A stretch of DNA of 64,000 nucleotides from Aureimonas sp. AU20 (lineage in GTDB: Bacteria > Pseudomonadota > Alphaproteobacteria > Rhizobiales > Rhizobiaceae). Every line of letters begins with the position of its first letter. Position 1 is the stretch's first letter. Under the pieces are notes generated by a model, which saw only the letters and a program-made list of their open reading frames with translations, made no database searches and was not told where the DNA came from. The position numbers were made by a program, and so were the translations under genes. Where the stretch lies: positions 2,356,001 through 2,420,000 of the forward strand of contig NZ_CP006367.1 of assembly GCF_001442755.1 (NCBI RefSeq). Direction: 5' to 3'. Of this stretch, positions 1-8,879 are shown piece after piece.

Positions 1-159
1 GCTTGGCAGAACTGTGCCGAACTCCGCGAGGTGACGCCTCGGCCATCCGGCCTCGAAAATGGCCCTCAGAAAGCGATGGGGCGTTTCAACCTTCCTCCCC
101 TTGTGAAGAGGAAGAAATACGCTCCACGGCCCGCCACGGCGGCAGGAGCGGTGTCGTGA
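1..159 (+). CDS. C-terminal end of an unidentified element protein (partial)
   Basis: An open frame runs from the first base to a TGA at 157-159, giving the last 52 residues of a protein whose start lies left of the window. The tail is basic (VKRKKY, then proline/alanine-rich). It has the same orientation as the phage genes that follow, separated by a 195-base gap containing a hairpin. I do not recognise the family. Position upstream of a Nu1-like gene would suit a packaging or replication protein, but that is only context. Confidence 0.45.
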   Translation, partial: AWQNCAELREVTPRPSGLENGPQKAMGRFNLPPLVKRKKYAPRPATAAGAVS

Positions 160-191
160 CTGGCCGGGCTCGACCGGCCGGGCAGGCGCGG

Positions 192-213
192 GGTGTGGCG
201 GCAGCGCCACACC
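192..213 (+). terminator. Hairpin between the partial gene and the Nu1-like gene
   Basis: An 8-bp perfect inverted repeat (GGTGTGGC at 192-199, GCCACACC at 206-213) has a 6-base loop. It is nested in a second possible pairing between GCGGGGTG and CACCCCGC that reaches to about position 223. It is followed by a run of C rather than T, so it is not a classical intrinsic terminator. It may stabilise the 3' end of the upstream transcript. It is the only structure seen in the 160-354 gap. Confidence 0.35.
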
Positions 214-354
214 CGGCACCCCGCCCCCCCCTATGGGTCCTTTCCAGGGGACGCGCAGAAGCCGCGGGTGGCGCGCAGCGCAGTTTCTCGCAACTTTTTC
301 GATTTTCGTTTTCGCATGTCCACGTCCCCCAAATCTTCCTCAAGGTAGATCGAG

Positions 355-831
355 ATGAAGACCCCAGAATTTCCTGAAACCCTTTCCCGGCAGGGGCTGG
401 CGACGCTTCTGGGCCTGTCGCCGAGACACGTCGCTCGGCTCGCCAAGGAGGACATCCTCGTCCGCGACGGCGCCGGGAAATATCCGGTTGTCGGCAACGT
501 CGCCCGCTATGTCGGCCACGCGCTCTCGCTTGAAGCGCGCCGATCGTCCGAGACATCCGGCGACCGATTGAGGGAAGCGCGCCGGCTCGACTTGGAACGC
601 GCAATGGCCCGCGACGATCGTGCAATCATCGATCTCGACGAGGCGCAGGACAGCATCGCCTCCTTGGTCGCGATGTTCGCTGCCGCGCTGGACGCGCTGC
701 CCCGCCAAGCTGCCCCGGATGATCGGGGCTTGCAGACCCGCCTCACGGGCGTCTGCGACGGCATTCGCTCAGCCCTGAGCGCGAAGCTTGCCGATGAAGC
801 AGCGAAACTCAAGAACGGGAAGGAGGCCTGA
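355..831 (+). CDS. Nu1-like phage terminase small subunit / DNA-recognition protein
   Basis: 158 aa. Residues about 10-35 form a winged-helix type helix-turn-helix (LATLLGLSPRHVARLAKE), followed by a basic stretch and a long helical C-terminal half. This is the layout of Nu1-family small terminase proteins of phages, which recognise DNA for packaging and recruit the large subunit. The start has an AAGGTAG ribosome site. It ends two bases before the tape-measure gene, so the two are probably co-transcribed. The position is odd, because small terminase normally sits beside large terminase and portal, neither of which is here. The fold assignment is from motif reading; an alternative is a regulator with the same helix-turn-helix. 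Confidence 0.6.
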   Translation: MKTPEFPETLSRQGLATLLGLSPRHVARLAKEDILVRDGAGKYPVVGNVARYVGHALSLEARRSSETSGDRLREARRLDLERAMARDDRAIIDLDEAQDSIASLVAMFAAALDALPRQAAPDDRGLQTRLTGVCDGIRSALSAKLADEAAKLKNGKEA

Positions 832-833
832 CC

Positions 834-3623
834 ATGGCCCGAGGTGCCCAGACTACTCTCACTCTCCGGCTTATCGACGCGGTCAGCGCCCCGGCGCGCG
901 CCGCGCGCGCCGCGCTCGCCGGATTGAACGCGGGCATCGGTGCCCTTCAAGGCTCAGGCAATATTCTGGCAGCTGCCGGACGAAACGCGCAGCGCGATAT
1001 GGGCCGTGTCGCCGCCGCTGGAACGGCGGCCGGCGCTGGTCTGGCGGCCGGAGCCTTGGCGATCGTATCCACGGAGAAGGCGCTCAACGCCGCCGCCGCC
1101 GCCGGCAATCTTTCGATGAAGGATCGAGCCGACGTCTATGACAACGCCATCCGTTTGAACTACGACTACGGCGGCTCTGTTCGTGATGTCATCAATGCGA
1201 ACACCGAACTTCTTCGTTCTGGTCTGGATCTCCAGAACAGCAAGGCGGCATTGCCGGATTCGTTGAACTTGGCGCAAGCAACCGGCGAGAATTCGGTTGA
1301 TACGACGCGCGCGATCGTGACGAACCTGACGGCGCTGGGGCTCCAGTACGATCAAACGGCGGCGGCAGCGGATCGCTTCGTCCAGGCCTTGGACCGCACT
1401 GCTGGCGTGAACTTAATCGACTTCGAAACGTCGGGAAAATACTTCAACCCGGTCGCCGCAGCGACGGGGATGAGCGCCGACGAAACCATGGCGATGCAGA
1501 TCGAAATGGCGAAGCGTGGCATCTCCGGATCGTCGGCCGGCACGGGCCTGCGCGCCGGTCCTGCGTCTATCCTCGCGCCGACGAAGAAAGCGCTGGGCGC
1601 CTATGCTCGCCTGAAATTGGACCCACGTCAGTTTCAGGGCGATCGCAAAGGTGACGCAACTGCCGAGCAAATTCTCGGCGTGCTCGAAGCCCGCGGCGCC
1701 AACACCGAAGGCGTCGAAGCGGCTGTCGCGGCGATCGTCGCTGCCAAGGCGAAGGACTCCGACAAAGCGAATCGAATTGTTCGTGACCTCGGGGACCAGC
1801 TGGGCGCGGTTACCGCAGAAGACCGCGCCGAAATGGTTCAGGCGGTCATGGCCGGGCTCCAAGGTGGCGCGCGGCGAGCCGATGTTCCGGGCCTCGTCAA
1901 GGAGCTCCAGCGACGAGGCGCCGGCTTCGCCGACTTCGAAGCGATTTTCGGCAGGAACCACGCTTCAAAATTTTTGGGCTTCAACGCGGCCAGCTACGAT
2001 GAGGAGCTTGGTCTGATGCGGACGCAGGCCCCCGGGTCGACGGACCGCAAGTCCAAAATGATGATGCAGGGCTTGCCGGGCGATGTGAACAACGCCGAGG
2101 GCGCGCTCCAGGGCCTTATCGCAGCGCTGTCCAAGGCGGGCGGGCTCTCTGATCTTTCCAAGGGCTTTCGGGCCGCTGCGGAGGCGCTGACGACCCTGTC
2201 GGACCAGAATCCGGCGCTTCTCCGGTTCGGCACGCTGGCCGCTGCCGCCGTTGCGGCGCTCGCGCCGCTCGGCTTTATGGCTGGATCAGCCGGCGCCGCG
2301 ATCGGCCTGCTCATCAACCCGGTTTCGCTGGCCGGCGCGGCCATTGCCGGGCTCGTCGGGATGAACCTGAAGCCTGTTACGAATGGGCTTCGCACCTTCT
2401 CGAATGCGCTACGTCGCTCGATCGACCTAACCATCATTCGGGGCATGCAGGCCCAGGGCGAGGCGGCACGCGAATGGCTCAGCTCGTTCCGCGCCGGCCG
2501 GCTCGCATTCAACCGAGTCGGCGACGATCTCGGCCGGGCGCTCGGGCGCGGCGTCAACGCCGCCGCACGCGCGCTTCCGCAGCTGCGGGCCGCTGCCGGC
2601 GCGCTCGCTTCGTTGGGTCAGACCGCTCTGGCTGCTCTCGGCCCGCGCCTCACGCCAGCAATCTCGAGCCTCCGCGATCTCGCTGAAACCTTCGCCGCGC
2701 CAAAGATCGAGGCGGCGCTCCGGCTCGGCGAGGCGCTGAAGCAGTTCGGTGCAAACGCCAGTGCCGCGATCGGACCAGCGCTCGCCGCCGGGATCTCCAT
2801 CGTTTCAACCAGCTTCGGAACGCTGACCGCCGGCGCCGAGGCGGTGATCCGGACGCTAAATGCCGTGCAGACGGGCATGGTCGCCTTCGCCAGCGGCCTT
2901 CTCGAGGCGATCTCGCCGGACGCCCTGGCATCGGCGTCGCGCGGTTTATCGGCGCTGGCTGACGCGGCGAGCCGGCCCGTCGCCCTCCTGGGCGACGGCT
3001 TCCGCGCGATCTCCAACGCGGTCGCTGGATCGACGGACTCGCTTGCCGCTTTTGCATCGAGCGCCGGTGCCAGCGTGGGCGCCGGGATCAATGCTGCCGT
3101 CGCCGCCCTGGCGAATGGCCGCGCTGCGCTGGCCGCGACCTGGAGCGCCATCACCGGTCTCTTCGACGAGATGGGGCGCTTCGTGCCCGACTTCGGCCCC
3201 TTGGTCGGCGCGATCCAATCGGCGATCGGATCGATCGTCTCGGTCCTGGAGCGCGTCGGCAGCGCTGTATCGGCGGCGCGCTCGGCCATTTCCGGATTGG
3301 CCGGGGGCGGCGCACAGCAAGCGGCAACGGCCGGCGCTGCGATCGGCGGCATGGCGGCACCGATGCAGGGGCCGCCCATGCCACGACGGGCCGGCGGCGG
3401 TTCCGTTCGACGCGGCCCTGTCTTGGTCGGCGAGCGCGGCCCCGAGGTGCTGAATTTGGGCGGCAACGGCTACGTCACGCCGAACCATAAGCTCGGCGGC
3501 GGGGGCGACACGATCAGCATCCACGTCAACGGCGCGGGTGATCCCGAAGCCGTCGCTAACCGGGTCATGCAGAAGCTGAACCGGAAGGTGCAGCGGTCCA
3601 GGCAGATCGGTATGAACAGGTAG
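834..3623 (+). CDS. Phage tail tape-measure protein
   Basis: 929 aa, alanine/glycine-rich. The N-terminal third (about residues 80-430) resembles the PhageMin_Tail tape-measure domain. A hydrophobic stretch follows around residues 465-515, then long helical alanine-rich sequence. The C-terminus carries the characteristic GERGPEVL ... YVTPNH signature common to tape-measure proteins. In siphophages such proteins set tail length and help DNA entry. The ATG has GGAGG eight bases upstream and follows the Nu1-like gene by two bases. No other tail gene is visible nearby, which is unusual. Family assignment is good; whether the protein still works in a tail is unknown. Confidence 0.85.
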   Translation: MARGAQTTLTLRLIDAVSAPARAARAALAGLNAGIGALQGSGNILAAAGRNAQRDMGRVAAAGTAAGAGLAAGALAIVSTEKALNAAAAAGNLSMKDRADVYDNAIRLNYDYGGSVRDVINANTELLRSGLDLQNSKAALPDSLNLAQATGENSVDTTRAIVTNLTALGLQYDQTAAAADRFVQALDRTAGVNLIDFETSGKYFNPVAAATGMSADETMAMQIEMAKRGISGSSAGTGLRAGPASILAPTKKALGAYARLKLDPRQFQGDRKGDATAEQILGVLEARGANTEGVEAAVAAIVAAKAKDSDKANRIVRDLGDQLGAVTAEDRAEMVQAVMAGLQGGARRADVPGLVKELQRRGAGFADFEAIFGRNHASKFLGFNAASYDEELGLMRTQAPGSTDRKSKMMMQGLPGDVNNAEGALQGLIAALSKAGGLSDLSKGFRAAAEALTTLSDQNPALLRFGTLAAAAVAALAPLGFMAGSAGAAIGLLINPVSLAGAAIAGLVGMNLKPVTNGLRTFSNALRRSIDLTIIRGMQAQGEAAREWLSSFRAGRLAFNRVGDDLGRALGRGVNAAARALPQLRAAAGALASLGQTALAALGPRLTPAISSLRDLAETFAAPKIEAALRLGEALKQFGANASAAIGPALAAGISIVSTSFGTLTAGAEAVIRTLNAVQTGMVAFASGLLEAISPDALASASRGLSALADAASRPVALLGDGFRAISNAVAGSTDSLAAFASSAGASVGAGINAAVAALANGRAALAATWSAITGLFDEMGRFVPDFGPLVGAIQSAIGSIVSVLERVGSAVSAARSAISGLAGGGAQQAATAGAAIGGMAAPMQGPPMPRRAGGGSVRRGPVLVGERGPEVLNLGGNGYVTPNHKLGGGGDTISIHVNGAGDPEAVANRVMQKLNRKVQRSRQIGMNR

Positions 3624-3642
3624 GTGCGTAATGCGAATCGCG

Positions 3643-4056
3643 CTACCGCTCAAGTGTAGGCTTTTCTTCTTTAAAAGCCTTCCGTTTCAGTGGCTTGTCG
3701 AAATGCATGTAGTTCTTCATCTGCGTAAATGCGTAATTCAGGAGTTGATTGTTGATAGTCGCCTCCTCCTCGTTCAGGTAAACATCAACTAATGTTTGGG
3801 AGATTCTCTTATCAAACAAGAACGTTGATGCTCGAACGGCATTCAAAAGCTCTTCTTTGTCGGGCCGGGTATCCACTACGAACTGCGATGGGTAGTAGTA
3901 CTGTGTGATAGTCTGATAGATGGCAAATCTCTTATCAAAGAGATCCAAGGCGAGCTTTTCCCTAGCGGTTTGCCATTGTCTCCAGGCTATGTACGCCACC
4001 GACATGCCAACGATCAAGGTGGATATGGCCTGGGCCCATGGTGCTGTTATCGTCAT
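3643..4056 (-). CDS. Small single-pass membrane protein, probable phage cargo gene
   Basis: 137 aa with one N-terminal membrane segment (about residues 5-25, ending AYIAWRQW) and a charged, tyrosine-rich cytoplasmic part. It is the only gene on the minus strand in this part of the element. Its codons are much richer in A/T than its neighbours, the usual sign of a recently acquired 'moron'. It lies between the tape-measure gene and a plus-strand terminator at 4132-4160. I do not recognise the function. Lysogenic conversion, superinfection exclusion or defence are possibilities suggested only by its setting. Confidence 0.6.
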   Translation of the reverse strand: MTITAPWAQAISTLIVGMSVAYIAWRQWQTAREKLALDLFDKRFAIYQTITQYYYPSQFVVDTRPDKEELLNAVRASTFLFDKRISQTLVDVYLNEEEATINNQLLNYAFTQMKNYMHFDKPLKRKAFKEEKPTLER

Positions 4057-4131
4057 TTCGCCCCCTTTCTCCCGTGCAGATCTGCGAATGTACTACGAGG
4101 TCGCATCGGGGAAACGCTCGAAACTGAAGAT

Positions 4132-4160
4132 GGGGCGGCCTTCGGGCCGCCCCCTTTTTT
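4132..4160 (+). terminator. Intrinsic terminator with TTCG tetraloop
   Basis: A 9-bp perfect GC stem (GGGGCGGCC / GGCCGCCCC) closes a TTCG loop and is followed by six T residues at 4155-4160. It therefore works for plus-strand transcripts. The nearest plus-strand gene upstream is the tape-measure gene ending at 3623, with the minus-strand gene lying between. The cargo gene may have been inserted ahead of the original operon terminator. Confidence 0.85.
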
Positions 4161-4344
4161 CGTGTGTTCGCTAGCCTGTGGAAAAATAAAAAATTCGAGA
4201 GACAATGCAGTGACTTGCTTCGGAAATTCACCTTTAGAAGACGAATTGAGCTTTGCTTCGGAGGCTATTTGAGTCAAATTCGGCCGTCGGCGAGAAAACC
4301 CTAGATCGGGCTAAGCCGCTTCCCTTACAATTTGAGGTTTTGAG

Positions 4345-4800
4345 ATGTCCGAAGATTTTCGGACGTCCGTACTCGCGCGCGCATTGGAACGCGACGAGGC
4401 GGTCGTTCGTGCATTCGCGGGCGGCTTGCCCATGGAAAGTCGCGTCCGACATCGAGTCGAGCGGCGATTCACGCTCAAAGACGCTCTCTCCATCACCATT
4501 TGCGACGCGGTTGCTTCCCAGCTTCCGCGTCGTTTTTCGTTCGCCTTGGTCGCGCAGGCCGCCGACCATTTTGAGCGCATCGTCGCGAACGACGATTACT
4601 CTCCGTGGTCCGTCTCATGGCCCGATCCGACGTCCGTTACCGGCTTCTCGTTCGCTTTCTTCAGCGACCCAGAGGCGGCGCTGGCATGTGTGCTCGAGCA
4701 CGACCAGGCGAGCACGTTCTCGTGGGCGGATCTCGTCCGGGGCGCCCTCGGGCGCATCCTGGAGGCAAAGCGCGTCGCCAAGGAGAAAAACAATGGGTGA
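4345..4800 (+). CDS. Unknown element protein, 151 aa
   Basis: The ORF starts after a TTGAGG ribosome site 10-15 bases upstream. It is arginine-rich in the N-terminal half, with a possible helix-turn-helix around residues 40-70, then a tryptophan/phenylalanine-containing middle and a lysine-rich end. It overlaps the next gene by 8 bases, and that gene overlaps the capsid fusion by 4, so all three appear to form one translational unit after the 4132-4160 terminator. I do not recognise it. A regulator or a head-assembly accessory are both conceivable. Confidence 0.55.
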   Translation: MSEDFRTSVLARALERDEAVVRAFAGGLPMESRVRHRVERRFTLKDALSITICDAVASQLPRRFSFALVAQAADHFERIVANDDYSPWSVSWPDPTSVTGFSFAFFSDPEAALACVLEHDQASTFSWADLVRGALGRILEAKRVAKEKNNG

Positions 4801-5014
4801 CCGCACGGAAGAACGCGGCGTCACCGGACTGGCCGTAACACGCTCCGGACACTTCGCCATTGGCCTCGGTGAAAACACCGCTCTGCTGGCGCTAGAGCCG
4901 GCCGAAATGCGCGATTTGGCAACGCAGCTTTTGCTGGCCGCCGCGGATCTGGAAGCGACTGCCGCCGCCGCGACCGAGGCCGCAATCGCCAGGGCCCGTG
5001 GAGGTCTTCAATGA
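4793..5014 (+). CDS. Unknown small element protein, 73 aa
   Basis: The ATG lies inside the end of the previous gene (ATGGGTGA overlap) with AAGGAG about ten bases upstream. The stop overlaps the capsid-fusion start (ATGA). The first half looks like a small beta sheet (LAVTRSGHFAIGL); the second half is an alanine-rich helix. The tight coupling to the capsid gene suggests a structural or assembly role, but no family is recognised. Confidence 0.55.
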   Translation: MGDRTEERGVTGLAVTRSGHFAIGLGENTALLALEPAEMRDLATQLLLAAADLEATAAAATEAAIARARGGLQ

Positions 5015-6927
5015 CCGGCAACAAAGTTCGCATCCCTGACGTTCTGCGCAGCGACGTGCAGATTCGCGCCGACACGGTGGATGAAGAAGCGCGAACCGTC
5101 GAAATCGTGTGGGCCGCCGGCGCCCCCGTCCAGCGTTATGACTGGTGGGAGCGCGAGAACTACATAGAAGAGCTTTCGATGGACCCTGGCGCGATCCGCA
5201 TGGATCGCTTCGCCGCCGGCATGTCGCTTCTCGACAGCCACAATCCCTACTCCATGGACGATCGCCTCGGCGTCGTTCTCCCGGGCTCTGTCCGGGTCGA
5301 GAACGGCCTCGGCATTGCCACGGTCCAGTTCTCGCGAAAGCCGCGCGCCGAAGAGCTATTCCAGGACGTCATCGACGGCATGCCGTTCCCGGTCAGCGTG
5401 GGATATCGAACCCACTCCTACGAGCGAACCGAGGCGAGCGACACTTCGATCGCCCGTCTCACTGCAATCGATTGGGAGCCGATGGAATTGTCGGCCGTCC
5501 CGATCCCCGCCGACCCGGCCGCCCACTCGCGCGGAGAAGCCCCCGGTCAAGTCCAGAAATTTCACGACGTGGCCGTGATGAGCCGCTCATCTTTGAAGGA
5601 GGGGCGAATGCCTTCCCAGAACAACCGCGCTCCCGAGCGTGATAATTCCCTTGGCTTGCCGCTCTCGACGCGACAGGCCGAGATGACCCGCATCTTCCCG
5701 AAGGAGGACGCCGTCCGTGCGTTCGTCGCCGGCCGCGAAGACATCGACTCCGAAGCATTCGTTGCTGAAACGCGCGGAATGAACGAGCTTCAGATTCGCG
5801 CCGCGCTTCTCGACCATATTGTCGAGCGCCAGGAGCGGACGCCAACTTTCCCGCACGCTCCGGCTCGTGCTGGCGCGGCCGATCGGCGTTCTGAGATCGA
5901 GGTGCGGGGCGAGGCGATCTACGCCCGGGCCAACCCAGCGCATCGCCTGTCCGAGCAGGGACGCCAGTTCGCCCACATGCGCTTTTCCGAGCATGCACGC
6001 GACTGCCTCCGGCATGCGGGGGAGAACGTCACGGGACTGTCCGATGCGCAGCTTGTGACGCGCGCCCTTCACGCCACTTCAGACTTTCCGCTAATCCTCG
6101 GGATCGCTGGCGAGCGCGCTCTCCGCGCTGGCTACGAGGTACAGGACAGTGAACTGCGCAAGACGGCGCGCCAGTCGACGCTTTCGGACTTCCGCACCCA
6201 CTACGCGGTGAACCTTTCGGCAGCGCCCAGCATCCTCAAGGTTAACGAGCACGGCGAATACAAGCGCGGCACGCTGCGCGAGAGCCAGGAGGGCTACGGC
6301 CTTTCCACCTACGGCCGCATCATCGGTCTGACTCGGCAGCTGCTCATCAACGACGACCTCGGTGCGTTCGCGCGGATCGCCCCCGCGATCGGCCGGAAGG
6401 CGCGAGATTTCGAGATTGCCAGTCTTGCGGCGATCATCGAGGCGAACCCAATCATGTCGGACGGTCTCTCGGTGTTCTCGGCCGAGCACGGCAATTTGGG
6501 CGCCGCCGCCAGTCTCTCGGTCGAAAGCCTCTCTGCGGCCCGGCTCGCGATGCGGAAGCAGACCGGCCTCGCGGGCGAGTCGATCGGCGTTCGGCCCAAG
6601 TATCTCGTCGTACCCAGCGAGCTCGAGACGATCGCGGAAAAGGTCCTCACGCAGATTGCGGCCACGAAAGTCAGCGACGTCAATCCTTTCGCCGCGAGAC
6701 TCGAATTGATCGTCGAGCATCGTTTGAGCGACCCAAGCGCGTGGTTCCTTGCCGCTGATCCGAACGAGGTCGACGGCCTGGAGTTTGCCCACCTAGCCGG
6801 TGAGGAAGGCGTCCACATGGAAACGAAGGCAGGCTGGGACGTCGATGGGATCGAGATAAAAGCCCGCCTCGACTTCGGAGCCGGCTGGATCGATCACCGC
6901 GGCTGGTACCGCAATCCTGGCCAGTAA
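5011..6927 (+). CDS. Prohead protease-major capsid protein fusion
   Basis: 638 aa. Residues about 1-175 read as a HK97-type prohead serine protease: a histidine in LLDSHN (His77) and the serine of FPVSVGY (Ser129) fit the catalytic pair. A charged linker follows at about 175-300, then a C-terminal capsid domain (about 330-638) with Mu gpT-like features. Protease-capsid fusions of this kind are a known phage class in which the protease frees itself during head maturation. A near-ideal internal ribosome site precedes an in-frame ATG at codon 200, so a capsid-only product is likely too. The start overlaps the preceding gene (ATGA). It is the strongest evidence that the element makes its own head. 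Confidence 0.85.
   Translation: MTGNKVRIPDVLRSDVQIRADTVDEEARTVEIVWAAGAPVQRYDWWERENYIEELSMDPGAIRMDRFAAGMSLLDSHNPYSMDDRLGVVLPGSVRVENGLGIATVQFSRKPRAEELFQDVIDGMPFPVSVGYRTHSYERTEASDTSIARLTAIDWEPMELSAVPIPADPAAHSRGEAPGQVQKFHDVAVMSRSSLKEGRMPSQNNRAPERDNSLGLPLSTRQAEMTRIFPKEDAVRAFVAGREDIDSEAFVAETRGMNELQIRAALLDHIVERQERTPTFPHAPARAGAADRRSEIEVRGEAIYARANPAHRLSEQGRQFAHMRFSEHARDCLRHAGENVTGLSDAQLVTRALHATSDFPLILGIAGERALRAGYEVQDSELRKTARQSTLSDFRTHYAVNLSAAPSILKVNEHGEYKRGTLRESQEGYGLSTYGRIIGLTRQLLINDDLGAFARIAPAIGRKARDFEIASLAAIIEANPIMSDGLSVFSAEHGNLGAAASLSVESLSAARLAMRKQTGLAGESIGVRPKYLVVPSELETIAEKVLTQIAATKVSDVNPFAARLELIVEHRLSDPSAWFLAADPNEVDGLEFAHLAGEEGVHMETKAGWDVDGIEIKARLDFGAGWIDHRGWYRNPGQ
5596..5610 (+). promoter_or_regulatory. 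Internal ribosome site and start codon inside the protease-capsid gene
   Basis: AAGGAGG at 5596-5602 lies five bases before an ATG at 5608, in frame with the fusion gene (codon 200). Initiation here would give a 439-aa product carrying the linker and capsid domain without the protease, similar in principle to nested scaffold/capsid genes of lambdoid phages. The match to the anti-Shine-Dalgarno is better than that of most starts in the window. Confidence 0.6.
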
Positions 6928-6937
6928 TTCACGAATA

Positions 6938-7011
6938 CCCGATGCGGAGTGGCATCGCGCATCGGGGGTAGGCCAGTCCTCGCTGGCCGGAAAGTCCACC
7001 TTGTGAGGTGG
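6938..7011 (+). other. Three consecutive hairpins after the capsid gene
   Basis: Three perfect inverted repeats follow one another: CCCGATGCG/CGCATCGGG (6938-6966), GGCCAG/CTGGCC (6971-6988) and CCACCT/AGGTGG with a TGTG loop (6996-7011). They lie between the capsid stop and the terminator at 7024-7056. They could protect the capsid mRNA 3' end or form a structured RNA. Confidence 0.6.
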
Positions 7012-7023
7012 TGGCAAAGAGGG

Positions 7024-7056
7024 GGGGCGCGGAGTCGTCACCGCGCCCCTTTTTTT
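7024..7056 (+). terminator. Intrinsic terminator after the capsid gene
   Basis: The stem GGGGCGCGG (7024-7032) pairs with CCGCGCCCC (7041-7049) around an 8-base loop and is followed by seven T residues (7050-7056). It ends the capsid transcript before the gene at 7113. Confidence 0.85.
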
Positions 7057-7112
7057 CGACCTTCGCGCTTCGCGCGGCTGAAGCGCGCGAGCCGCGAATG
7101 CCGGAGGAAACC

Positions 7113-7517
7113 ATGAATATCTTCGACGACCTTCTCGGCATGGCCGAGGAAACGCTTGATCTCGTGAACGGCGAACCCGTCGTCATTCATCCCCAGTACC
7201 GCGGCCCGAACGGTCGGGCCGTCCCTGATCCCGAGCGCCGGCCGGTCCACCTGTCCGGCATTTTTGAGATCCGGCCAGGGCCCGGGGACATTCAACTCGG
7301 CAACCGCAACAGCGCACGCGGCGGCAATGATCTGCGGCTCCTTCAGAATGGCGCAACGAACACCCTTTCGATCCGTGCAACCGACCTCGACGGCTTGGAA
7401 CTGCGCCAGGGCGACCGCATCGACCTTCCCGACAGGGGAACCGGCAGGCGCTTCGAGGTCGTCGCATGCCAGCCAGACGAGCACGGGCGGCTGAAATTGC
7501 AACTGGTGGAGAAATGA
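7113..7517 (+). CDS. Probable phage head-tail joining protein
   Basis: 134 aa. The start is set by GGAGG five bases before the ATG; longer upstream reading runs through the terminator. The protein opens with a short helix (MNIFDDLLGMAEE) and continues as beta strands, ending with a barrel-like FEVVACQPDEHGRLKLQL segment. Size, fold pattern and position just after the capsid fit gpFII-type head-tail attachment proteins, which cap the portal vertex. Sequence identity to any family was not tested, so the call rests on layout. Confidence 0.55.
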   Translation: MNIFDDLLGMAEETLDLVNGEPVVIHPQYRGPNGRAVPDPERRPVHLSGIFEIRPGPGDIQLGNRNSARGGNDLRLLQNGATNTLSIRATDLDGLELRQGDRIDLPDRGTGRRFEVVACQPDEHGRLKLQLVEK

Positions 7518-7518
7518 G

Positions 7519-7707
7519 ATGGGCGAGAAGCGTTCGACGATCTCGATCTCGCGCTACGCGAACCTGATCGCCGCGGCGAAAGCGGCAGGACTTCCGGTGG
7601 TCCGATCCGAGATCGACGCGGACGGCCGGATCGTTCTGGTCCATGCTGAACCATCTGATGCAACGAGGATGGCAGGCTCCAATTCCTTCGACAGGATACT
7701 GAGGTGA
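7519..7707 (+). CDS. Small protein translationally coupled to the integrase
   Basis: 62 aa. It starts one base after the head-tail gene with a GGAG site, and its stop overlaps the integrase GTG start (GTGA). The central AAAKAAGLPVVRSEID...GRIVLV pattern, a helix followed by a beta hairpin, is one I associate with small proteins next to integrases in alphaproteobacterial elements. A role as excisionase or other integrase helper is inferred from this coupling only. Confidence 0.5.
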   Translation: MGEKRSTISISRYANLIAAAKAAGLPVVRSEIDADGRIVLVHAEPSDATRMAGSNSFDRILR

Positions 7708-8786
7708 GAAAGCGGCCCAACCCTTACCCTGGCATCACGCCTGCACCCGATCGACACGGAAAGATGCGGTGGCGCTTCCGCATGAAGGGGCGGCCAGCGT
7801 GTTACATCAATCACGAATACGGATCGAAGGCGTTCGAAGCCGCCTACAAAGCGGCGGTCGAGTCCAGCTTCGACATCACGTCTCCGACGCTCGACGAGGG
7901 CAGGGGCACATTCGGCTGGCTGATCGAGGAATACGCGCGTCGGCCGGCGTGGTCCAAGCTCGCGAAGATCACCCGCACAAATCAATGGAACGATTTCCAG
8001 CGCTTCCGGCAGGAATATGGGACCGCCATGGTCCGCGATCTACGTTCCGACCATGTCGAGAAGATGCTCGCAAAAAAGGCTTCTACTCCCAGCGCGGCGA
8101 ACCACCTCTTGCGCACCGTCAAACTGCTCTGCCGCTTCGCCGTGAAGATCCGGCTGATCGAGGCCGACCCGACCGCCTCTGTGGAACGGTACGCCGAGAA
8201 CCCAGACGGCTTTCACACATGGACGACGCTCGAAATCGGCCAGTTCATCGAGTTCCACGGTGCAGCATCGAAGCCAGCTCTGGCCCTTGAACTGATGCTT
8301 TCGACCGGCGCGGCGCGTCAGGACGTCATCGCCTTGGGCTGGCAGAACATCCGCGCCGGGCGCATCGCCTACCGCCGTCACAAGACGGGCGGGGAGGTGG
8401 ATCTTAACCTCTCGCTCATGCCCGATCTTTCGACGCTCCTCGAAGATCTGCCGCGTGACCGGATGCTGTTCCTATCCTGGGGTGCCGGTCGCCCTTACAC
8501 AGCCGCCGGCTTCGGCAATCGCTTCCGAGAATGGTGCAGCAAGGCCGGACTTCCGCATTGCAGTGCGCATGGCCTGCGCAAGGCCGGCGCAACGCGGCTC
8601 GCCGAGGCTGGTGCGACCGAGTTCGAAATAATGAGCTTCCTCGGCCATCGCACAACAGACGAAGCCAGGACTTACGTGAAGCGCGCAAATCGTGCAAAAA
8701 TGGCCGACGCTGGGATGCGAAAGCTTCTCGGTGTGTCCAACCAAGTCGTCGGGTTGGACAAGCATCGATCCAAGCTACTGAAGTAG
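7704..8786 (+). CDS. Tyrosine-recombinase integrase
   Basis: 360 aa, GTG start overlapping the previous stop. An N-terminal arm and SAM-like core-binding domain occupy about residues 60-165, the catalytic domain about 175-340. The full active-site set is visible: Arg205, Lys227, His289-x-x-Arg292, His315 and nucleophile Tyr324. Such enzymes insert and excise elements at tRNA genes. The gene points at, and nearly touches, tRNA-Glu at 8805, the likely target. No terminator separates them, so integrase transcripts would run antisense to the tRNA. The protein looks intact. Confidence 0.93.
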   Translation: MRKRPNPYPGITPAPDRHGKMRWRFRMKGRPACYINHEYGSKAFEAAYKAAVESSFDITSPTLDEGRGTFGWLIEEYARRPAWSKLAKITRTNQWNDFQRFRQEYGTAMVRDLRSDHVEKMLAKKASTPSAANHLLRTVKLLCRFAVKIRLIEADPTASVERYAENPDGFHTWTTLEIGQFIEFHGAASKPALALELMLSTGAARQDVIALGWQNIRAGRIAYRRHKTGGEVDLNLSLMPDLSTLLEDLPRDRMLFLSWGAGRPYTAAGFGNRFREWCSKAGLPHCSAHGLRKAGATRLAEAGATEFEIMSFLGHRTTDEARTYVKRANRAKMADAGMRKLLGVSNQVVGLDKHRSKLLK

Positions 8787-8804
8787 AAGGAGAAAAAAAG
8801 ATGG

Positions 8805-8879
8805 TGGTACGCCCAAGGAGAATCGAACTCCTCTCTCCACCGTGAAAGGGTGGCGTCCTAACCGATAGACGATGGGCGC
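8805..8879 (-). tRNA. tRNA-Glu (anticodon TTC), integration target
   Basis: 75 bases including an encoded CCA. The acceptor stem GCGCCCA/TGGGCGT (first pair G-U), the anticodon loop CTTTCAC with TTC, and the GTTCGATT T-loop are all present. Its 3' end faces the integrase. A TATAGA element about 15 bases upstream of the 5' end is shared with the second copy and may be its promoter. Confidence 0.93.

Follow-up and report, generated by a model that had tools for sequence, protein, structure and literature searches.

The window analysed here is a 64,000-nucleotide stretch of Aureimonas sp. AU20 (contig NZ_CP006367.1; G000:C1:2356001-2420000), whose left edge cuts through an integrated element carrying capsid and tape-measure genes. 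With flanking sequence fetched (extended locus L003, numbered as window position + 8000), the element is 11,185 bp long, of which 2,382 bp lie upstream of window position 1. The core of its left attachment site (attL) duplicates 18 bp of the tRNA-Glu 3' end at L003:5619-5636 and is located beyond a 598-residue gene that we take to be recJ-like and use as an anchor only. A first-pass annotation had placed the element at 1..8804; the right end was exact (attR starts at 8804), and the left end was only the edge of the window. A recJ match was found in 20 other congeneric genomes, and 10 of these loci were read. In nine, the tRNA-Glu site has no insert, recJ being followed by approximately 40 to 600 bp and then by one to three tRNA-Glu genes; the tenth (G159) has no tRNA-Glu after recJ. 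The GC content is 0.636 for the element, 0.661 for the left flank, and 0.648 for the right flank.

The element encodes, in order, five early proteins (65, 120, 393, 126, and 113 residues), a small terminase, a tape measure, a reverse-strand 137-residue open reading frame (ORF), a 151-residue winged-helix protein, a 73-residue protein, a capsid–protease protein, a head–tail protein, a 62-residue protein, and an integrase (Table 1). The head-forming gene, connector, Nu1-like packaging protein, tape measure, and integrase named in the first-pass annotation are all present as uninterrupted frames with Pfam or PHROG matches, although the head-forming gene is corrected to a protease–capsid fusion. 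The gene order is, as had been remarked, not that of a standard phage; the same order recurs in related satellites. Pfam and PHROG scans of the whole element gave no match to large terminase, portal, tail tube, lysis, or HNH families, bearing out the reported lack of large terminase, portal, and lysis genes. Searching the element by tblastn with terminases and portals from two reference phages also gave no match. A full phage to the left of the window can be rejected: up to attL there are only the five predicted early genes and no phage module. Integrated, bounded by att sites, and short of some genes that an autonomous virion requires, the locus fits the generic sense of a phage satellite.

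Table 1. Features of the element and its target site in window coordinates
Feature	Position	Strand	Basis
Early gene D, 3' part (113 aa; start 182 bp left of window edge)	1..159	+	Gene call; weak Pfam DUF6074 match, E 0.003, below cut-off
Terminase small subunit, Nu1-like, 158 aa	355..831	+	phrog_57, E 8e-11; 30% identity to G059 prophage TerS
Tail tape-measure protein, 929 aa	834..3623	+	PF10145, E 4e-23; PHROG tape-measure families; both ends match G059 prophage tape measure
137-aa reverse ORF, possible cargo	3643..4056	-	ORF in low-GC stretch
MerR-like winged-helix protein, 151 aa (orf151), directly before capsid operon	4345..4800	+	Profile of 14 counterparts against PDB 2jml, E 1.4e-4
73-aa protein	4793..5014	+	Gene call; several relatives have a 66-86 aa protein here
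Prohead protease–major capsid protein fusion, 638 aa	5011..6927	+	phrog_4523, E 2e-199; PF25209, E 2e-50
Head–tail attachment/head-closure protein, lambda gpFII type	7098..7517	+	PF05354, E 8e-8; phrog_82, E 1e-4
62-aa protein	7519..7707	+	Gene call; no family match
Tyrosine integrase, 360 aa	7704..8786	+	PF00589, E 9e-15; phrog_1, E 3e-32
attR core, 18 bp, within tRNA-Glu 3' end	8804..8821 (L003:16804-16821)		Repeat match to attL
Target tRNA-Glu, left whole by attR sequence	8805..8879	-	ARAGORN

A complete-looking prophage in genome G059 (L070 and L295) carries homologues of the small terminase, capsid, head–tail protein, and tape measure. Identities are 30% for the small terminase, 38% for the head–tail protein, and 54% and 39% for two parts of the capsid. 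The tape measures align over residues 6–511 (31% identity) and 861–928 (38% identity); the match at the C-terminal end scores 58.9 bits, with the best of 50 shuffles at no more than 21.2. The satellite protein has 929 residues against 803 in the prophage, and the surplus is located in the middle. The ends of a tape measure contact the neck and the tip of the tail. Conserved ends around a variable middle are what would be expected if the protein must still fit the neck and tip of a helper. In a phage collection, 104 records match the tape measure, all of them over at most 80% of its length. A search of 5.8 billion proteins gave six relatives at E 1e-30 among 8000 candidates scored, five of them on contigs of 7.6–18.5 kb. 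A GERGPE-like motif was rejected as a hallmark of satellite tape measures (found in 5 of 19 tape measures from satellites, 1 of 13 from elsewhere, and 2 of 614 other long proteins).

No replication genes had been seen in the first 8.8 kb, a claim to be corrected in view of a winged-helix protein with in-gene iterons just left of position 1. The 393-residue early protein matches HTH_29 at E 1.6e-5 (below the cut-off) and, weakly, O-like initiators (E 0.0026); it is probably a replication initiator. Five copies of TACTGCGACA are located within 103 bp inside its gene (L003:6543-6645; window -1457 to -1355). When up to one mismatch is allowed, 18.5 kb contains seven matches to TACTGCGACA, where the mean is 0.41; none of 200 shuffles reached this count. 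The iteron stretch folds as DNA (z -7.2), with hairpins present. Nine early regions of relatives were searched for 22-nt repeats; these are located inside the initiator gene in three (L047, L036, and L091), within a 329-residue ORF in L035, and between genes in L058, and are absent or weak in the remaining four. In lambda, the origin is likewise within the initiator gene O. Because the iterons are inside the 393-residue gene and repeats are found inside the initiator gene in relatives, the array is a likely candidate for a replication origin within the initiator gene.

A capsid-protein search of 199 family genomes matched 32, and the 35 places other than the window's own were all retrieved together with flanking sequence; scanning named genomes added 23 loci, giving 58 besides that of the window. 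Two duplicates (L060, identical to L039, and L072, identical to L048) and one capsid fragment (L092) were dropped before counting. No large terminase or portal was detected in 22 loci, and 18 of these have a tape measure (clusters c7 and c13; representatives checked by PHROG). The other four lack a full one: L035 and L075 are cut by contig ends, L046 has a 206-residue fragment, and L080 has none. Direct repeats bracket integrase and capsid in 14 of the 22 loci, the window element included, and touch a tRNA gene in 13; that of L086 is 15 bp without a tRNA. Several of the repeats are just 14–16 bp, and repeats of this length also arise by chance in these loci; the element ends are therefore assigned mainly on the tRNA position. 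The compact set that was to be looked for elsewhere, an att-bounded element with capsid and tape-measure genes in which neither large terminase nor portal is detected, does therefore recur in other genomes. Thirteen bounded elements measure 9.0–12.0 kb and one (L091) 16.4 kb; 12 have a full tape measure, one a fragment, and one none. The same head–tail protein is present in seven and a small terminase in six. Besides capsid, tape measure, and integrase, ORFs longer than 340 residues are primases, initiators, a topoisomerase, a glycosyltransferase, and a tail protein; only L091 has an unexplained one (418 residues, no match), the other 13 having none. A tape-measure search of the family matched 10 of 394 genomes at E 1e-12. 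It led to one additional element outside these counts, L301 in G689, with a 48-bp att repeat lying at tRNA-Arg; this element encodes a small terminase, a tape measure, a winged-helix protein, and a capsid. The nearest relative, L035, is also from Aureimonas (capsid 54–56% identical to that of the window).

Some loci deviate in single genes. A gene at the chaperone position before the tape measure (c48; L086:3106-3468) is present in L086 only, and L039, L062, and L091 have kept one extra tail gene, a phrog_52 protein after the tape measure. L300:6635-16466 combines an integrase, an O-like initiator, a small terminase, and a tape measure with a different head protease gene; it may be a satellite whose head is of a different type, and no att repeat was found in it.

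On the capsid tree (54 rows), the label "terminase-less", which also takes in L035, L046, and L080, needs 10 changes, at least 7 of which are forced by well-supported branches, compared with an average of 17 for shuffled labels; the tree is partly unresolved. From these changes, the architecture is read as having arisen, or been reached by swapping, several times. Selection was assessed in L063 and L089, two 87.5% identical elements beside different tRNA genes of one genome. The ratio of nonsynonymous to synonymous rates (dN/dS) is 0.080 for the tape measure (471 codons, partial), 0.126 for the capsid, and 0.062 for the winged-helix gene. Given these values for tape measure and capsid, elements of this kind are maintained and not decaying. 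Between L003 and L035, with synonymous sites near saturation, dN/dS is 0.27 for the capsid, 0.25 for the small terminase, 0.19 for the head–tail protein, and 0.67 for the winged-helix protein.

We interpret the element, with good confidence, as an integrated helper-dependent phage satellite that would supply its own shell and tape measure and borrow the portal, the packaging motor, and most of the tail. The full chimeric-particle mechanism is somewhat less secure but still favoured; the satellite nature in general stands more firmly. Infection by a siphophage helper would induce the element and lead to excision, and replication would start from the iterons. The small terminase is predicted to steer the helper large terminase to element DNA. 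The element's capsid protein would then form a shell, probably small, around the helper portal, and its head–tail protein and tape measure would join it to a tail with helper tube and tip, a step for which the tape measures of phage-inducible chromosomal island-like elements (PLEs) of Vibrio are a precedent. Head and tail of the particle would both be chimeric. By analogy with Vibrio PLEs, the tape measure may determine how long the tail becomes or protect the satellite against interference directed at tape measures.

The alternative that survives best, possible but unlikely, is a capsid-forming phage-inducible chromosomal island (cfPICI) that has secondarily lost terminase and portal and works like other cfPICIs, the tape measure being accessory cargo. 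By the definition in the relevant passages of PMC10690885 and PMC11389934, the window element resembles cfPICIs in being integrated, in its own integrase, small terminase, capsid, protease, and head–tail protein, and in size and tRNA site. It differs in that the small terminase subunit was found alone, no portal was detected by the protein family scans or with the two reference portals, the PF05354 protein is the only head–tail connector (no gpW-type match), no decoration protein or HNH endonuclease was detected, and a tape measure is present. Sister elements with terminase, portal, capsid, and integrase do exist at tRNA genes (L037, L038, L074, and L088; 11–13 kb), a small gene (c20) is common to L086/L087 and L037/L038, and a tape measure is also found in cfPICI-like L145 and L157. 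Against secondary loss, the two defining genes are missing, and the reduced set recurs in separate capsid clades instead of as scattered losses in one cfPICI clade, although the tree is not fully resolved. As observations in their own right, the four sister elements have the compact arrangement terminase–portal–capsid–gpW–decoration–integrase; such cfPICI-like elements appear common in the order, further examples being L147, L158, L165, and L168, and the tape measures at L145:5054-7174 and L157:12206-13579 stand in elements with terminase and portal.

According to the first-pass annotation, a satellite and a decayed prophage would both fit. The satellite half of that statement stands; decay, in which terminase, portal, tail, and lysis genes were deleted and the rest has not yet rotted, is improbable. 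All four virion and packaging genes do have homologues in complete-looking prophages, the nearest relative has no detectable tape measure, and no helper is known. Decay nevertheless fits poorly with att copies at both ends and uninterrupted frames, with 13 other bounded elements of similar size on several capsid lineages that show this reduced set too, and with dN/dS well below 1 (0.08–0.13) in the close pair L063/L089. We give as little credence to a tape measure that is a decoy disturbing helper tail assembly and not structural in satellite particles: tape-measure-directed interference is known (PLE11 Rta against the ICP1 tape measure, described in PMC12987554) and the window protein is longer than its prophage relative, but both of its ends are conserved and PLE tape measures are, according to the same account, built into PLE virions.

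Several points weigh against a helper-dependent satellite that supplies its own shell and tape measure. Elements that encode a capsid usually encode their own portal as well. The initiator family matches are weak, L046 has only a tape-measure fragment and L080 none, and the Aureimonas genome of L035 gave no tape-measure match in a search without a positive control, the contig of L035 ending inside the element. The tape-measure dN/dS is that of the related pair L063/L089. No GpA-type large terminase was found in G000, compared with 7 of 15 such genomes that have one, and no helper was identified. A helper in the same genome was considered and rejected, since the second tape measure of G000 is unrelated (a weak match of 38 residues only) and the GpA-type terminase is missing. 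That tape measure (828 residues) belongs to a prophage-like region at approximately 2768–2785 kb of G000:C1 (L276 and L277), with a protease, an HK97-type capsid, and a portal next to an integrase; the ten proteins scanned there included no recognisable terminase. In IMG/VR (123 relatives, 80 kept), none of the kept loci has the layout of the element, and no direct terminal repeat of 16 bases or more was found among those listed; four of the 80 have no terminase and portal labels and look like cut phage contigs. At the order level, 72 of 397 genomes matched and 40 loci were read. Six have neither terminase nor portal (two on short contigs, one with a capsid fragment only), and none of the 40 combines this absence with a tape-measure label.

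The suggestion of an undescribed satellite class was only partly right. The open-access literature gave no description of such an element in Rhizobiaceae-like bacteria; PLEs with a tape measure (2026, PMC12987554), putative Escherichia coli satellites (2023, PMC10448857), and cfPICIs with putative tape measures have nevertheless been described. PLE11 particles are reported to hold the PLE tape measure in place of that of the phage, with tails approximately 10 nm shorter, as predicted; deletion of the tape-measure gene lowers transfer by 96–99.9% in three PLEs, and PLE11 Rta targets the ICP1 tape measure (PMC12987554, Nature 2026). The discussion and an extended figure legend of that paper also mention predicted tape measures in unrelated satellites, sampled cfPICIs included. 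The window element shares with PLEs a tape measure of its own, which for PLEs has been shown to enter chimeric tails. As described in the same passages, PLEs use the helper capsid, encode a tail chaperone and baseplate hub, and have a myophage helper; the window element encodes its own capsid and small terminase, its tape measure is of siphophage type, and no chaperone or hub was recognised beside it. The 224 putative E. coli RepA_N satellites described in PMC10448857 likewise combine capsid and tape measure without a large terminase, with an integrase at tRNA genes. Compared by description, they lack any terminase, protease, and head–tail adapters and have RepA_N, a decoration protein, and a baseplate hub, whereas the window element has a small terminase and a protease domain and no RepA_N match at E 0.1. 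With classical PICIs, including Staphylococcus aureus pathogenicity islands (SaPIs), it shares an integrase, an initiator with origin (the initiator assignment being weak), and a TerS that would redirect the helper TerL (in part after PMC10690885). Those islands reshape the helper capsid and have no capsid gene of their own; the window element encodes a complete capsid–protease protein.

For the smaller genes, a small winged helix–turn–helix protein similar to orf151 precedes the capsid gene in several relatives, and a protein search with orf151 gave one homologue (61%) apart from itself. A role of orf151 as second small terminase was rejected, the profile search favouring MerR-type regulators with only E 0.28 for the lambda Nu1 domain; a role as scaffold is unsupported. 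The stretch 3624–4344 has a GC content of 0.48, compared with 0.67 for the tape-measure and 0.64 for the capsid gene. The 137-residue reverse ORF within it opens with a hydrophobic stretch and may be cargo, for instance a gene for exclusion or defence; it has no PHROG, PADLOC, or above-cut-off Pfam match, and a defence-gene scan of the element gave weak winged-helix look-alikes only. The head–tail start at 7098 is that of the gene call; a longer frame opens at 7008. By position, the 62-residue protein may be an excisionase.

Capsid-forming satellites have been thought to bring a whole head and to steal tails only. The elements described here bring a shell without the portal, the usual start of shells, and one tail protein without the tube. 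Tentatively, and with slightly less than even confidence, they may be a satellite family with several separate origins within one bacterial family, whose paired capsid and tape-measure genes travel without portal or packaging motor; a foreign portal would then carry the satellite shell and a foreign tube would enclose the satellite tape measure, making the particle chimeric at both ends of the neck. If the elements move, shells must be able to pair with portals, and tape measures with tubes, from other phage lineages. Under this reading the partners in each pair would be separable across lineages, and control of tail length by satellites would be general. Recurrence on several capsid lineages would extend the chimeric PLE tails reported in 2026 from a myophage satellite to siphophage-type satellites of Rhizobiaceae-like bacteria, where tape measures such as those of 929 and 803 residues are natural pairs for asking whether satellites change tail length.

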